Assembly: GCA_015709575.1 (NCBI GenBank)
Contig: CP054190.1
Coordinates: 3,594,616-3,658,615 of the forward strand
DNA from: Planctomycetia bacterium
GTDB lineage: Bacteria > Planctomycetota > Phycisphaerae > UBA1845 > Fen-1342
DNA length: 64,000 nucleotides
Reading direction: 5' to 3'
Below are positions 829 to 56,600 of the stretch, piece after piece. Made by a program: the position numbers and the translations under genes. Below the pieces are notes generated by a model that worked only from the letters and a program-made list of their open reading frames with translations, made no database searches and was not told the origin of the DNA. Position 1 is the stretch's first letter, and the number at the start of each line of letters is the position of its first letter.

Positions 829-895
829 GGAAGGGATTCCCGAAGACGGGGTGCGGCTTGCATGCCTACGCGGAGTACCGCGAAGGCATGCCACC
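829..895. repeat. Family A hairpin followed by family B hairpin
   Basis: GGGAA-GGGA-TTCCC (family A) starts near 831. A full family B hairpin occupies 860-895: left arm GCATGCCTACGCGG, loop AGTA, right arm CCGCGAAGGCATGC, flank CCACC. The same A-then-B order recurs near 2696-2812 and 5289-5354. Confidence 0.85.
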
Positions 896-1040
896 CTCCG
901 CGAAGGCATGCCACCCTCCGCGAAGGCATGCCACCCTCCGCGAAGGCATGCCACCCTCCGCGAAGGCATGCCACCCTCCGGGAAGGCATGCCACCCTCCG
1001 GGAAGGCATGCCACCCTCCGGGAAGGCATGCCACCCGCCG
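881..1040. repeat. 20-bp tandem array derived from the family B right arm
   Basis: Eight head-to-tail copies of a 20-bp unit, CGAAGGCATGCCACCCTCCG and its GG-starting variant. The first copy is the right arm plus flank of the hairpin at 860-895, so half of a hairpin has been amplified. Each unit keeps a GGCATGCC palindrome. Confidence 0.9.
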
Positions 1041-2404: not shown

Positions 2405-2680
2405 GCATGCCTACGCGGAGTACCGCGAAGGCATGCCACCCGCCTGATTCACGGATCATGCTTCCGACGCCCCTTCGGGGCGTCCCCTTCGGGGCGTGTT
2501 TCTTTGATGATTCTCATCCACGGGTTTCGTCGTCGCTGCGCGACGACTCCACCCGTGGCTACAACCCGCGGCCCCGTCGGGGCCGAAGAGGCCGAGCGCT
2601 CGATCGGGGCCGAAGAGGCCGAGCGCTCGATCGGGGCTGGAGAGGGCGAGCACGGGGCGGCACAAACACTGCGCAATAGC
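2405..2680. repeat. Repeat cluster: B hairpin, C nested hairpin, 27-bp units
   Basis: Family B hairpin at 2405-2440. Then a CGCCCCTTCGGGGCG hairpin near 2468-2482 and a second half-copy just after. Family C nested hairpin at 2518-2558: outer stem CCACGGGT/ACCCGTGG, inner stem GTCGTCGC/GCGACGAC. A GGCCCCGTCGGGGCC hairpin follows. Two 27-bp units GGGGCCGAAGAGGCCGAGCG... start at 2579 and 2606. The block from about 2448 recurs almost unchanged at about 3952. Confidence 0.85.
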
Positions 2681-2689
2681 AACGGCATC

Positions 2690-3026
2690 AGGCGGGAAGG
2701 GATTCCCAAAGACGGGGTGCGAGAAAGGATTCTCGCACCAGCAGCTCGCACCAGCGGGGGCCACGGAGTGCGGCTTGCATGCCTACGCGGAGTACCGCGA
2801 AGGCATGCCACCCTCGGCGAAGGCGGGACACTCGGCGCGAAGGCGGGACACTCGGCGCGAAGGCATGCCACCCTCGGCGAGCGCGGGGCACTCGGTGCGA
2901 AGGCATGCCACCCTCGGCGAAGGCGGGAGACTCGACTCACGGGAATTCTGCGGAGGGCGTGTAACTCCTGAGCAAATCGCATGGGACGCGAGGACCGGCT
3001 CACGGGAATTCTGCGGAGGGCGTGTA
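2690..3026. repeat. Repeat cluster: A hairpins, B hairpin, 21-bp tandem, 28-bp direct repeat
   Basis: Family A hairpins near 2697 and 2718 (GTGCGAGAA-AGGA-TTCTCGCAC). Family B hairpin at 2777-2812. From 2797 to about 2935 the B right arm is amplified as degenerate units of about 21 bp (CGAAGGCATGCCACCCTCGG and CGAAGGCGGGACACTCGGCG types). A 28-bp direct repeat beginning CTCACGGGAATTCTGCGG occurs at 2936-2963 and 2999-3026, 63 bp apart. No coding potential is convincing in 2081-3070. Confidence 0.8.
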
Positions 3027-5140: not shown

Positions 5141-5490
5141 CCAGGGCCTGAAGGCCCTGGCTACGACCGACCGCCCTGGCGGGCGAAGAGCAGCGGTCAC
5201 GCGCGCCCGGTGGGCGTCAGGACAACGCGGACGGCCGTTGGTTGGGCACGCCGGCGCTGCACGGCTCAGGAAAACTGGGATATGGCGGGAAGGGATGCCC
5301 GAAGACGGAGTGCGGCTTGCATGCCTACGCGGAGTACCGCGAAGGCATGCCACCCTCCGGGCGATTGCAGGGAGGCGTTTTTTTGAACGAAAGGCTTCTC
5401 GCACATGGGGGGTGGGAAGGGATGCCCGAAGACGGGGTGCGAGAGAGGATTCTCGCACCAGCGGCTCGCACCAGCGGAGGCCACGGAGTG
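5141..5490. repeat. Repeat cluster: D hairpin pair, A hairpins, B hairpin
   Basis: Family D at 5141-5185: CCAGGGCCTGAAGGCCCTGG hairpin with TGAA loop, linker CTACGACCGAC, then a CGCCCTGGCGGGCG hairpin. Family B hairpin at 5319-5354. Family A hairpins near 5291-5310 and 5404-5460, including GTGCGAGA-GAGGA-TTCTCGCAC. Family D begins 8 bp after the sigma-factor stop codon, where it could act as a terminator or an mRNA end. Confidence 0.85.
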
Positions 5491-26495: not shown

Positions 26496-26496
26496 G

Positions 26497-26724
26497 GGTG
26501 GCATGCCTTCGCGGTACTCCGCGTAAGCATGCATCGGCACTGCGCGAGGAGCAGTGGCACGCGCGCGGAGAAGCGCTGGTGGGCGCGGCCCACCCTACTC
26601 AAGCGCCCATGCGGGTCGATATCCGCGCGCGGGATGAAAATCCCGCAGAAGTGCGTGCGAGATGGGAATCTCGCGCGAGCGGCTGCCGGCGGCGACGCTC
26701 TATGTTCAACAGCGGTGGCACGAG
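26497..26724. repeat. 228-bp composite repeat, copy 1 (B, G and F hairpins)
   Basis: Starts with an inverted family B hairpin (26497-26532), then a GTGGGCGCGGCCCACCCTAC hairpin (family G), then family F hairpins such as GTGCGAGAT-GGGA-ATCTCGC. It is nearly identical, and equal in length, to 33746-33973. The IS4-like element split its left edge and the IS5-like element lies 23 bp to the right. Confidence 0.9.
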
Positions 26725-33730: not shown

Positions 33731-33745
33731 GGCGCGCAAACGGCG

Positions 33746-33973
33746 GGTGGCATGCTTTCGCGGTACTCCGCGTAAGCATGCATCGGCACTGCGCGAGGAG
33801 CAGTGGCACGCGCTCGGAGAAGAGCTGGTGGGCGCGGCCCACCCTACTCAAGGGCCCATGCGGGTCGATATCCGCGCGCGGGGTGGGAATCCCGCAGAAG
33901 TGCGTGCGAGATGGTATTCGCGCGCGAGCGGCCGCCGGCGGCGACGCTCTATGTTCAACAGCGGTGGCACGAG
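33746..33973. repeat. 228-bp composite repeat, copy 2 (B, G and F hairpins)
   Basis: Same order, length and orientation as 26497-26724, with about a dozen substitutions. Starts with an inverted B hairpin at 33746-33781. It is not interrupted by an insertion sequence. Confidence 0.9.
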
Positions 33974-38419: not shown

Positions 38420-38860
38420 GCGCCCCTGCCGGGGCTGGAATCCTCGTCGACTCTTCGTTGAATTCTCGTTGTTGATTCGCTTCCACGGGTTTCGTCGCCG
38501 CTGCGCGGCGACTCCACCCGTGGCTACACTCCGCGGCCCCGATGGGGCCGAAAAAAGCCTCAAGACCTGCCGGCGCGGGTGGCGGCGCTTTCGCGACGGG
38601 TGGCATGCGTTCGCGACGGGCGGCGGCGCTTTCGCAACGGGTGGCATGCTTTCGCGGTACTCCGCGTAAGCATGCCGAAGATCGGCACTGCTCAAGTCAG
38701 TCGCACATGCCCGATGCTCGGAGGCGGGAATCTCGCGCCCGGAGGTCAACGGATGACGGCGGGACAGGAATCCCGCACACGGGCGTGCGAGATGGGAATC
38801 TCGCACGAGCGGCTCGCACCAGCCGCCAATGGTGGGAACGGCCCACCCTACGACTCGGCC
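38420..38860. repeat. Repeat cluster: C nested hairpin, B hairpin with upstream 20-bp units, F and G
   Basis: Family C nested hairpin at 38483-38523 (inner stem GTCGCCGC/GCGGCGAC) followed by GGCCCCGATGGGGCC. From about 38577 a degenerate 20-bp unit (GGTGGCATGCGTTCGCGACG type, the inverted B arm) recurs four times and ends in a complete inverted B hairpin at 38640-38675. F hairpins near 38785 (GTGCGAGAT-GGGA-ATCTCGCAC) and GTGGGAACGGCCCACCCTAC near 38832 follow. No gene is apparent in 38386-38959. Confidence 0.85.
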
Positions 38861-42736: not shown

Positions 42737-43210
42737 ATGCACACCGAAGAGCGATACATGCGGGTCGCGATTGAGGCGGCGCGGCGCGGGCGGGCGCTGG
42801 GGCAATCGCCCTTTGGCGCGGCGGTTTTTCGGGGGGATGACCTGGTCCATGCCGGGCACAATCAGGTGTGGCTGCGCGGTGATCCGACGGCGCACGCGGA
42901 GGTCGTCGCGATCGGCGGGGCGACGCGGGCGCTGGGGCGGATCGACCTGAACGGCTGCCGGCTGTATTCGACGTGCGAGCCGTGCCCGATGTGCGCGGCG
43001 GCGATTCACTGGGCGCGGCTGGACGCGGTTTTCTATGGCGCGACGATCGCGGATGCGGCGGCGGCGGGCTTCAACGAGCTGCACGTGTCGATTGGGGAGC
43101 TGTATCAGCGGGGCGGCAGCACGGTGAGCGTGACGGCCGGCGTGGCGCGCGAGGCGTGTGCGGCGCTGTTCGCGGAATGGCTGGCGGATGAGAAGCGGCG
43201 GACGTATTGA
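42737..43210 (+). CDS. Nucleoside/guanine deaminase-family protein
   Basis: A 157-residue zinc deaminase from ATG 42737. The motifs are HAEVVAIGGA (His ligand and catalytic Glu) and TCEPCPMCAAAIHWAR (two Cys ligands), as in guanine deaminases and tRNA adenosine deaminases. The opening MRVAIEAARRGRALGQSPFGAAVF and the late ELYQRGG region are more like guanine deaminase (GuaD) than TadA. It would convert a purine base or nucleoside to its oxo form. The family B repeat array starts right after its stop codon. Confidence 0.88.
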   Translation: MHTEERYMRVAIEAARRGRALGQSPFGAAVFRGDDLVHAGHNQVWLRGDPTAHAEVVAIGGATRALGRIDLNGCRLYSTCEPCPMCAAAIHWARLDAVFYGATIADAAAAGFNELHVSIGELYQRGGSTVSVTAGVAREACAALFAEWLADEKRRTY

Positions 43211-43470
43211 GCGGCGGCGCTCGGTCGTCTCTCGATTGGCGCTCAATTCAGCATTCCACATGCTTACGCGGAGTACCGCGAAAGCATGCCACCCAACATC
43301 AACCACCCACCCCCCACCCACCCCCCACCAGCCACCACTCACTACGAAATCGGAGCTCGGTCGAAGCTCAAGCGGAGATCGATCGATGCTCAAGCGGCGC
43401 TCGGTCGTCGCTCGATTAGAGCTCAATTCAGCGTTCCACATGCTTACGCGGAGTACCGCGTAAGCATGCG
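43205..43470. repeat. Left repeat array of the RAYT locus (family B hairpins)
   Basis: Two long units, about 180 bp apart, each ending in a family B hairpin: 43259-43293 and 43439-43470. Between them lies CCACCCAACATCAACCACCC with an expanded CCACCC run, then CACTACGAAATCGGAGCTCG, GATCGATCGATGC and GCTCGGTCGTCGCTCG segments. The second hairpin is a perfect palindrome apart from the loop. The same unit is tandem on the right side of the transposase at 44144-44608. Confidence 0.9.
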
Positions 43471-43515
43471 TTCGAAGCGCAGCTTTTGCTCCGATCACGC
43501 GTCTATGATGGCTGC

Positions 43516-44121
43516 ATGCAGCTTCCGGACGGCAGAATTCGCAAGTTGCGCCGCAGTGCAGATGATGCGACCGCCGCGCACGCCCTCACGTTTTCCTGCT
43601 TTCATCGCCGCCCGTTCCTGAGCCGCGAGCGCACCTGCCTCTGGCTGGTCGAGGCGCTCGAACAAGCGCGCCGCAATCACTCGTTCGACCTGTGGGCGTA
43701 CGTCTTCATGCCTGAGCACGTGCACCTGATACTCTGGCCGACCGACCCGTCGTTCCGACTTGGCACGGTCCTGGCAGCAATCAAAGTGCCTGTCAGCCGA
43801 CGCGCGCTGTCGTTCGTGACGAAACACGCGCCGGAATTCCTGGACCCCATGCGCGACGCCCAGCCAAACGGTCGGCTATCGCATCGCTTCTGGCAGCGCG
43901 GCGGCGGCTATGACCGTGATCTGCACGACCCCGGTACGATCCACGCGACGATCGACTACGTTCACGCGAACCCGGTGCGCGCGAGGCTGGTCGAACGCCC
44001 GGAGCTGTGGCGCTGGTCCAGTGCGGCATACTTCGCCGGGGAAGGAGCAGCGCCACTGGAACCGGACGTGGACTCGATCCCTGCGCCGCCGGCGCACTGG
44101 CGGTTTCGGAGCGGCTCGTAG
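43516..44121 (+). CDS. Y1/HUH transposase of the REP-associated (RAYT) type
   Basis: A 201-residue single-strand DNA transposase-like protein. ATG 43516 is used; the ribosome site is poor. The HUH motif is EHVHLILWP with H68 and H70. The helix IDYVHANPVRARLVERPELWRWSSA carries the probable nucleophile Tyr148. This tail, with NPVRA...W.WSS, is diagnostic of REP-associated tyrosine transposases rather than IS200/IS605. These are single-copy host genes that recognise REP hairpins and can cut and rejoin them as single strands. Here the gene lies between two arrays of family B hairpins, so B is the likely substrate. The sequence is intact and all expected residues are visible. Confidence 0.92.
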   Translation: MQLPDGRIRKLRRSADDATAAHALTFSCFHRRPFLSRERTCLWLVEALEQARRNHSFDLWAYVFMPEHVHLILWPTDPSFRLGTVLAAIKVPVSRRALSFVTKHAPEFLDPMRDAQPNGRLSHRFWQRGGGYDRDLHDPGTIHATIDYVHANPVRARLVERPELWRWSSAAYFAGEGAAPLEPDVDSIPAPPAHWRFRSGS

Positions 44122-44143
44122 CGCGAGCTGCGCCGGACGCAGA

Positions 44144-44608
44144 GCATGCTTACGCGGAGTACCGCGAAAGCATGCCACCCAACATCAACCAGCCACCACT
44201 CACTACGAAATCGGAGCTCGGTCGAAGCTCAAGCGGAGATCGATCGATGCTCAAGCGGCGCTCGGTCGTCGCTCGATTAGAGCTCAATTCAGCGTTCCAC
44301 ATGCTTACGCGGAGTACCGCGAAAGCATGCCACCCAACATCAACCAGCCACCACTCACTACGAAATCGGAGCTCGGTCGAAGCTCAAGCGGAGATCGATC
44401 GATGCTCAAGCGGCGCTCGGTCGTCGCTCGATTAGAGCTCAATTCAGCGTTCCACATGCTTACGCGGAGTACCGCGAAAGCATGCCACCCAACATCAACC
44501 AGCCACCCCCACCCACCCCCACCACCAGCCACCACTCACTACGAAATCGGGGCTCGGTCGAAGCTCAAGCGGCGCTCGAGGGAAGCTCAAGCGGCGCTCG
44601 ATTGGCGC
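44144..44608. repeat. Right repeat array of the RAYT locus (155-bp units)
   Basis: Family B hairpins at about 44144-44180, 44299-44334 and 44454-44489 are 155 bp apart. Each is followed by CCACCCAACATCAACCAGCC, CACTCACTACGAAATCGG and GCTCAAGCGGCGCTCG segments. A truncated fourth unit runs to the stop codon of the glycosyltransferase gene at 44609. The units are nearly identical, so amplification is recent. Confidence 0.92.
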
Positions 44609-51179: not shown

Positions 51180-51860
51180 GCATGCTCACGCTGAGTACAG
51201 CGAGAGCATGCCACCCAACCGAAACAGCAACTGCACTACTCACGAGCAGTGGCACGTGCGACAGCTATGGCACATGCAGCAGCAACGGCACGTGCGAAAG
51301 CGGAGTACAAGCGACGCGAGTGCAGCGGGAAAGGATGGGCGGGTCGAGCTTTGGGCGTAGGGGGGGGGAACTCGACCCGCCCGGCATCAGGGACGCGAGA
51401 CTCGTTCACACTGGGCCCGTAACGGCCCGGAATCGCGGCGCGGACCGACGATTCCAGGCATGTCATCCATGAGCACGTTACGAGCCCAGCATCAAATTCA
51501 TGGCGTCGCGCGCGCCGGCCGTCTGGGCCGTGGCGCCGGTTTCAGCCGCCCGACGCGCGCTGACGCCGATTGTCCGAACTACACAACCGTCCAAACTACA
51601 CAACAGGCAACCAGTGGCTGAAGCCACTGGCTACGATCGATCGCCCTGCGGGCGAAGCGCCGATGAACAGCCGATCGTCGCGGGCGTGCGTTGCATGCTC
51701 ACGCTGAGTACAGCGAGAGCATGCCACCCGGACGCTCGTCGCGGCATTCCACGCAGGGCCGTGGGCGCCGTCTGCATGCTCACGCTGAGTACAGCGAGAG
51801 CATGCCACCCTGTTATCCGGTCACCCGGTTCTCCGGTTATCCGGTCACCTGGAAATCCGG
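51180..51860. repeat. Repeat cluster: three variant B hairpins, D hairpin pair, 17-bp tandem
   Basis: Variant B hairpins (GCATGCTCACGCTG/CAGCGAGAGCATGC) at 51180-51215, 51693-51728 and 51774-51809. Family D at 51611-51654 in the covarying form CCAGTGGCTGAAGCCACTGG. Near 51250 short GTGGCACGTGC-type units repeat. From about 51812 to 51866 a degenerate TCCGGTCACC/TCCGGTTAT unit repeats five times up to the ATP-cone gene end. Confidence 0.85.
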
Positions 51861-55934: not shown

Positions 55935-56600
55935 GTTGGGGCGCCCTTTCAGGGCTTGCTTGGGCGGCGGAACTGATCCCCGCTGCGTTGCGCTGACCCA
56001 GGGCGTTGCCCTGGGCTGAAGCTGGGATGCACCTTCGGTGCGACAGACGTCCGGATACGCCATCGTTGCGGTCGCTGGTGCGAGAACCCTTTCTCGCACC
56101 AGCAGGTAGACCAGCAGCGGCAGAATCCCGCATCGGCGGACCCGGGAAAGGATTCCCGAAGACGGGGTGCGAGAAAGGGTTCTCGCACCAGCAGACTGAT
56201 AGCAGCCCGTTGAAGAAGTCCATTCGGGGCATTCTCGACCCCGCTGGCGCTGTCGATAACGCGGTTTTTCAGAGCCGCGGCGACTTAATCAACGGACTGA
56301 TAGGGGCGAACTATCCGAAGCCGAGGGCAACGCCCTGGGAAGGCAGCAACGCCCTGGGAAGGCAGCAACGCCCTGGGAAAACAGCAACGCCTTGGGAAGG
56401 CAGCAACGCCCTGGGAAAACAGCAACGCCCTGGGAAGGCAGCAACGCCCTGGGCGACGGCTCGCATGCTCACGCTGAATACCGCGAAGGCATGCCACCCG
56501 CCACCGCCGTCATTCCACTGTCATACGCGCCGCGACATGCCTACGCGGAGTACCGCGAAGGCATGCCACCCGCCGCGAAGGCATGCGACCCGCCGCTGTT
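55935..56600. repeat. Repeat cluster: E hairpins, A hairpins, 19-bp tandem, two B hairpins
   Basis: GCGCCCTTTCAGGGCTTG near 55944. Family E at about 56000-56045 (CCCAGGGC-GTT-GCCCTGGG, then GCACCTTCGGTGC). Family A hairpins near 56078-56102 and 56145-56195. A 19-bp tandem (AACGCCCTGGGAAGGCAGC and an AAAACAGC variant) runs from about 56325 to 56455 in seven copies and is derived from half an E hairpin. Family B hairpins at 56463-56498 (a mixed-arm copy) and 56535-56570, with an extra B arm after it. No gene is apparent in 55924-56716. Confidence 0.85.

Follow-up and report, generated by a model that had tools for sequence, protein, structure and literature searches.

RAYT1 and the hairpins beside it

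The window, i.e., the whole stretch of 64,000 nucleotides that was analysed, carries an uninterrupted open reading frame of 201 amino acids at 43516-44121 on the forward strand, designated here RAYT1. Copies of a hairpin family, B, lie on both sides of the gene and elsewhere in the window. The features are listed below in window coordinates.

43516..44121, +, predicted RAYT1 (TnpA-REP) gene, assigned from NCBIfam, profile, Foldseek and residue conservation
43717-43725, +, codons of the RAYT1 HUH motif, H68-V-H70, from the alignment of relatives
43957-43959, +, candidate catalytic tyrosine of RAYT1, Y148, from the alignment of relatives
within 43516..44121, +, F125-W126-Q127 of RAYT1, FWQ being kept in relatives
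43213..43504, +, left array, units 180 bp apart, spacer as in the right array plus a C/A-rich insertion
43259..43294, -, B REP, TT/AA subtype, left copy 1 (stem-loop 43259-43288, tag CCACCC 43289-43294)
43439..43468, no strand assigned, hybrid B hairpin beside the RAYT1 start, perfect stem, untagged
44145..44454, +, two tandem 155-bp units (hairpin, tag and spacer), 100% identity
44145..44180, -, B REP, right copy 1 (tag 44175-44180)
44300..44335, -, B REP, right copy 2 (tag 44330-44335)
44455..44490, -, B REP, right copy 3 (tag 44485-44490)
33745..33780, +, dispersed B REP, TT/AA (30-mer match and tag)
38639..38674, +, dispersed B REP, TT/AA (30-mer match and tag)
26496..26531, +, dispersed B REP, mixed TT/GG (30-mer match and tag)
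861..896, -, dispersed B REP, CT/AG (30-mer match and tag)
2406..2441, -, dispersed B REP, CT/AG (30-mer match and tag)
2778..2813, -, dispersed B REP, CT/AG (30-mer match and tag)
5320..5355, -, dispersed B REP, CT/AG (30-mer match and tag)
56536..56571, -, dispersed B REP, CT/AG (30-mer match and tag)
51181..51216, -, B REP of the third subtype (GCTCACGCTGAGTACAGCGAGAGC; third-subtype pattern)
51694..51729, -, B REP of the third subtype (third-subtype pattern)
51775..51810, -, B REP of the third subtype (third-subtype pattern)
56464..56499, -, B REP, variant of the third subtype (sequence comparison)

The RAYT1 product matched NCBIfam NF047646 (REP-associated tyrosine transposase) with 86.2 bits against a cut-off of 80. 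A search with a profile built from 64 relatives returned the E. coli RAYT (PDB 4er8) as the top match (E 6.6e-19), with IS200/IS605 transposases far behind. When the AlphaFold model of RAYT1 (pLDDT 87.9) was compared with known structures by Foldseek, 4er8 again ranked first (E 1.4e-08), followed by ISDra2 (2.6e-06); the identity to the E. coli protein in the fold alignment was about 18%. H68, H70, and W126 are invariant in the 64 relatives and Y148 is kept in at least 90% of them. RAYT1 alone scored 17.4 against the Pfam family Y1_Tnp (cut-off 23) and had no Pfam match at 1e-3; Y1_Tnp matched 17 out of 18 aligned sequences at 0.01. Since NF047646 was hit above its cut-off, 4er8 came first by both profile and fold, and HUH, Y148, and FWQ are conserved, the predicted protein is, on sequence and model grounds, a RAYT. 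This agrees with the preliminary description, which had seen an intact Y1/HUH protein of RAYT type at these coordinates. RAYT1 is a non-IS gene and is present once in the genome.

The B hairpins of the locus occupy 43259-43288 and 43439-43468 to the left of the gene and 44145-44174, 44300-44329, and 44455-44484 to the right. The preliminary description had placed them at 43259 and 43439 and at about 44144, 44299, and 44454, and its near-identical units of about 155-180 bp on both sides of the gene were likewise recovered. On the right, the 155-bp copies starting at 44145 and 44300 are 100% identical, and on the left, the two hairpins lie 180 bp apart, separated by the same spacer as in the right array plus a C/A-rich insertion. 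Within the window, the 125-bp inter-hairpin segment was found only at this locus. The claim that tandem units are unique to the locus may hold for the window, but the genome contains other tandem REP units, e.g., with a period of 153 bp at 468100/468253/468406, of 298 bp at 3498498/3498796/3499094, and of 147 bp at 3229766/3229913/3230060.

The four tagged copies around RAYT1 are all in one orientation (direct), and no inverted flanks are found here. The hairpin at 43439, the nearest one to the left of the RAYT1 start, is untagged and has a T in place of the A at the mismatch position, which makes its stem perfect. It combines the 5' arm and loop of a plus-oriented unit with the 3' arm, CCGCGTAAGCATG, and flank of an inverted REP. 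Because of this mixture of arms, and since an inverted left REP is seen in relatives, the hairpin is probably the product of a palindrome exchange between a tandem unit and an ancestral inverted left REP. We also considered a mere point mutant, a less economical explanation that leaves the joint loss of the tag and change of flank unexplained.

Structure and distribution of family B

A B element consists of 5'-GGGTGG and a stem of 12 bp that contains a single T.T mismatch and is closed by the loop TACT, the REP-strand sequence being GGGTGGCAT-GCYTTCGCGGTACTCCGCGTARGC-ATG. Copies were gathered by pattern search and regional sequence retrieval. In the genome (one contig, 3.89 Mb; G000) 86 copies were found at no more than 3 mismatches and none with the reversed-pattern control. 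The pattern of the third subtype gave 40 matches, a few of them shared with the 86, which brings the total to about 120. Within the window, there were 13 matches to the B 30-mer at no more than 3 mismatches (shuffles 0), and all of the 17 window copies are intergenic according to a crude gene call limited to the window.

In 111 of the 120 copies, including four of the five at the locus, the hexamer GGGTGG/CCACCC is exact and adjoins the stem, and in none of the 120 does it occur on the opposite side, in line with the GGTGG flank reported earlier 5' of the stem on one strand. The GT[AG]G foot, 0-2 nt 5' of the stem-loop (PMC6006769), is thus found in B as a GGGTGG that abuts the stem. Outside the tag and stem, the flanks are weakly conserved. 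Three subtypes could be distinguished, namely TT/AA, CT/AG, and a third one with TC/GA plus T-A for G-C, and the double changes between them preserve stem pairing: five of the 12 stem pairs are altered on both sides, a covariation matched by 0 of 500 shuffles and far lower in slid registers. The T.T mismatch is retained in nearly all copies. As single-stranded DNA, both strands of B are predicted to fold (-13.7 to -14.7 kcal/mol), the z values lying at about -6.3 to -7.0. In 26 of the 120 copies, e.g., those at window positions 861 and 56536, an extra tandem CGCGAARGCATGCCACCC half-stem and tag follow behind the tag.

As B is a tagged, imperfect palindrome that is dispersed and, in the window, extragenic, its reading as a REP family, with RAYT1 as the putative partner, is well supported by sequence. 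The suggestion of a planctomycete REP family in the preliminary description is thereby supported.

The subtypes differ in their arrangement. We found 29 inverted pairs with the tags outward among CT/AG and third-subtype copies, 20 of them spaced 64-65 bp, although the pairs include local duplicates and are not all independent. These two subtypes thus form inverted pairs at a fixed spacing, as REPINs do, whereas TT/AA, the subtype present at RAYT1, occurs mostly as single or direct copies. Of 13 TT/AA clusters, 6 lie no more than 120 kb from RAYT1, against 0.8 expected (p 6.5e-5, one of three distances tried), an enrichment that the other subtypes did not show at that distance. B clusters are rarer between 1.15 and 3.0 Mb: this region, picked post hoc, makes up 48% of the genome but has only 9 of the 48 clusters (p 3e-5).

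RAYT genes and their hairpins within and beyond the genome

Tagged B hairpins were detected in 12 out of 114 genomes of the order. The closest relatives of RAYT1 are two genes in G073 (68-70% identity), one in G070 (67% across an insertion), and a remnant in G023 (pieces of 73-82%), all of them flanked by inverted B hairpins with the tags outward. Since the copies at RAYT1 are direct and its left neighbor is perfect and untagged, while the flanks are inverted at these four loci, we read the RAYT1 locus as a rearranged REPtron; the protein assignment rests on other criteria. The order hairpin-gene-inverted hairpin in the relatives resembles the ends of an insertion sequence, and hairpins also flank RAYT1, as would be expected if the locus were a complete IS200-like transposon that moves whole and leaves the dispersed B copies as solo ends. 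Such a transposon is very improbable, given that RAYT1 is present in a single copy, that there are about 120 solo hairpins for this one gene, which also pair with one another in inverted orientation, and that both profile and fold favor a RAYT over IS200/IS605 transposases.

A second RAYT, RAYT2, lies at 350084-350578 of the genome (G000:C1; L002, L077) and is 44% identical to RAYT1. It is flanked by inverted hairpins, GCCACTGCTC..GAGCAGTGGC, unlike B. The hairpin of the RAYT2 clade, CACTGCTC..GAGCAGTG, has only four exact core copies in the genome; these were found with a variable-gap pattern, whereas the fixed pattern CACTGCTCNNNNGAGCAGTG gave no matches because the loop varies from 2 to 6 nt. 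Hairpins of this type are also present at other RAYTs that are about as distant from RAYT1 (L093-L097, L162). In addition, a RAYT2-type hairpin (GAGCAGTGCCGATCTTC), either complete or halved, is often found ahead of TT/AA copies of B, e.g., at 468070-468430, 487560-487620, and 3529600-3529660 of the genome and at window positions 33751 and 38645, and it is possible that these are chimeric pairs derived from two RAYT families. The presence of RAYT2, 350 kb into the genome, and the half hairpins before TT/AA copies could suggest that RAYT2, or a RAYT since lost, spreads B and that RAYT1 is a relic. We consider this very unlikely, as the RAYT2 clade has a different and, in this genome, rare hairpin, the TT/AA subtype clusters near RAYT1, and the reading frame and catalytic residues of RAYT1 are intact.

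A third hairpin family, GTGCGAGA..TCTCGCAC, was observed at window positions 2717, 5437, 38785, 56078, and 56167. In other genomes, distant RAYTs (L106, L120) are bordered by hairpins of a similar kind. As only two RAYTs were found in this genome, both of another type, it is possibly an orphan REP family.

Matching left and right hairpins were present at 46 of 70 planctomycete RAYT loci, whereas none of 73 control positions taken from these sequences had them; at the remaining 24 loci no left/right pair was found, even with the tag not required. The distant RAYTs have matching hairpins of their own, and among 44 loci the similarity of the hairpins follows the identity of the RAYTs (Mantel rho 0.34, reached in 0 of 5000 permutations). 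Within 300 bp of RAYTs, hairpins tagged with GGTGG reach about 20 times the density seen outside this distance (40 in 28.6 kb versus 11 in 157.9 kb). Under a strict requirement for this tag, hairpins were found at only 15 of 49 loci, since other RAYT clades use GGGTGC or GTGTGC.

The expectation that B occurs only where a RAYT of this type exists held only in part: the three other genomes with a RAYT of at least 67% identity, a remnant in the case of G023, have B, but so do three genomes (G072, G037, and G071) in which none was found. Many B hairpins without the RAYT had been named as a finding that would speak against the partnership, and G072 has 86 tagged copies and only RAYTs at most 48% identical to RAYT1, two of which (L160, L162) are flanked by other hairpins. 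In G037 (10 copies) and G071 (five), a search with the G073 query at 0.001 returned no RAYT. B is thus not confined to genomes in which this RAYT was found. REPs may have outlived their RAYT there, in which case B without RAYT is to be expected, or there may be a gap in the assembly. G072 offers a natural test of REP persistence in a genome where no close RAYT was found. G073, with two RAYTs, has only five B copies.

The three genomes in which B lacks an identified cognate RAYT, and the arrays at RAYT1 with their tandem direct copies only, would also suit an orphan or foreign repeat (a terminator-like or MITE-like hairpin) among whose copies RAYT1 merely landed, but this is hardly credible in view of the outward-tagged B hairpins at close RAYTs in three other genomes, the hairpin pairs at RAYT loci and their absence from the controls, the density of tagged hairpins near RAYTs, and, for a terminator, the one-sided GGGTGG tag, which would not be expected to persist. 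RAYT1 as the likely cognate of B is supported by the RAYTs of 67-82% identity in three genomes, all flanked by B, and by the different hairpin of RAYT2.

A probable REPtron and its place among known systems

Judged from sequence, the locus is very probably a REPtron, in which RAYT1, as a Y1/HUH single-strand endonuclease, is combined with its cognate REP family B. RAYT1 would bind the hairpin that the REP strand forms when single-stranded, e.g., on a lagging-strand template, with GTGG at the foot of the stem as a guide, would cut beside this foot through Tyr148, and would transfer or copy the element to another place. The direct arrays around the gene would have arisen later by tandem duplication, and the untagged perfect hairpin at 43439 would be a scar of the exchange described above.

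Traces of movement were seen in other genomes. The RAYT gene of G070 has an in-frame insertion of about 75 bp that holds a B REP, between HUH and Tyr. RAYT codons 43-78 (approximately) together with the REP recur at four further sites in G070, every copy ending at the tag, though two pairs of these copies share longer flanks, so that the four do not all represent independent events. The left boundary of the dispersed units exists in two versions (223-bp and 347-bp alignments). Remnants of RAYTs adjoin B REPs in G016, G023, and G070. G016, a genome with 25 RAYT matches, also has four near-identical RAYTs within 5 kb (C1:2614651-2619419). The tag end shared by the four copies, together with the hybrid hairpin at 43439, hints at a single tagged REP as the spreading unit in these planctomycetes, with a fixed tag end and a variable stem-side end that may carry host DNA, the hairpin serving also as a point of strand exchange; we put this forward only tentatively and regard it as rather doubtful. 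If true, such one-ended spread would depart from the REPIN-only model. The REP within a RAYT, the dispersed RAYT pieces, and the hybrid hairpin all bear on the nature of the mobile unit.

REP/RAYT pairs are best known from gammaproteobacteria. The pairing itself, GT[AG]G tags, co-divergence, REPINs, tandem clusters, and REPs in RAYT genes have been described before (PMC2817692, PMC3116915, PMC3733652, PMC6006769, PMC8266576). Planctomycete GTAG and CGTC repeats are mentioned in PMC3733652, and RAYTs fulfilling the criteria of PMC2817692 were found there only in gammaproteobacteria. In our literature search, no paper describing the B family was found, and the surveys it covered touch on planctomycetes only in passing. 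RAYT1 and B are a well-supported new example of a known pairing, of which few descriptions exist for this phylum. The phylum-wide RAYTs, each with its own tagged hairpin, make up tens of natural enzyme-substrate pairs (44 in the Mantel test), a set useful for reading the recognition code, as the foot (GGGTGG, GGGTGC, or GTGTGC) is nearly constant and the stem variable.

With the E. coli TnpA-REP/RAYT (REPtron Ec; PDB 4ER8; PMC8266576) RAYT1 shares HUH, a single Tyr, and the conserved Trp-Gln, and B shares with the E. coli REPs the 5' GT[AG]G foot, an irregular stem, several subtypes, and inverted pairs. The tag of B is GGGTGG and not GTAG, stem and loop are unrelated, and the irregularity is one T.T mismatch in B and a bulge in E. 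coli. The REP-flanked gene, the co-divergence of RAYT and REP, and the accumulation of REPs near the gene are common to the gammaproteobacterial pairs (Nunvar 2010, PMC2817692), and GTGG tags are known in Pseudomonas (PMC2817692). Unlike those pairs, RAYT1 belongs to another host phylum, its neighboring copies are direct, and its left neighbor is a hybrid. As in REPINs (Bertels and Rainey 2011, PMC3116915), two inverted REPs occur at a fixed spacing and tandem clusters include flanks, but here only CT/AG and the third subtype pair, while TT/AA, the subtype that borders the gene, is mainly found as lone or direct copies. Finally, TnpA-Y1 subclass 2.4 (PMC6006769) likewise has an in-frame REP inside a RAYT gene between HUH and Tyr, here seen in G070, and canonical GT[AG]G REPs; the base of those stems has three G-C pairs, whereas that of B is CATGC.
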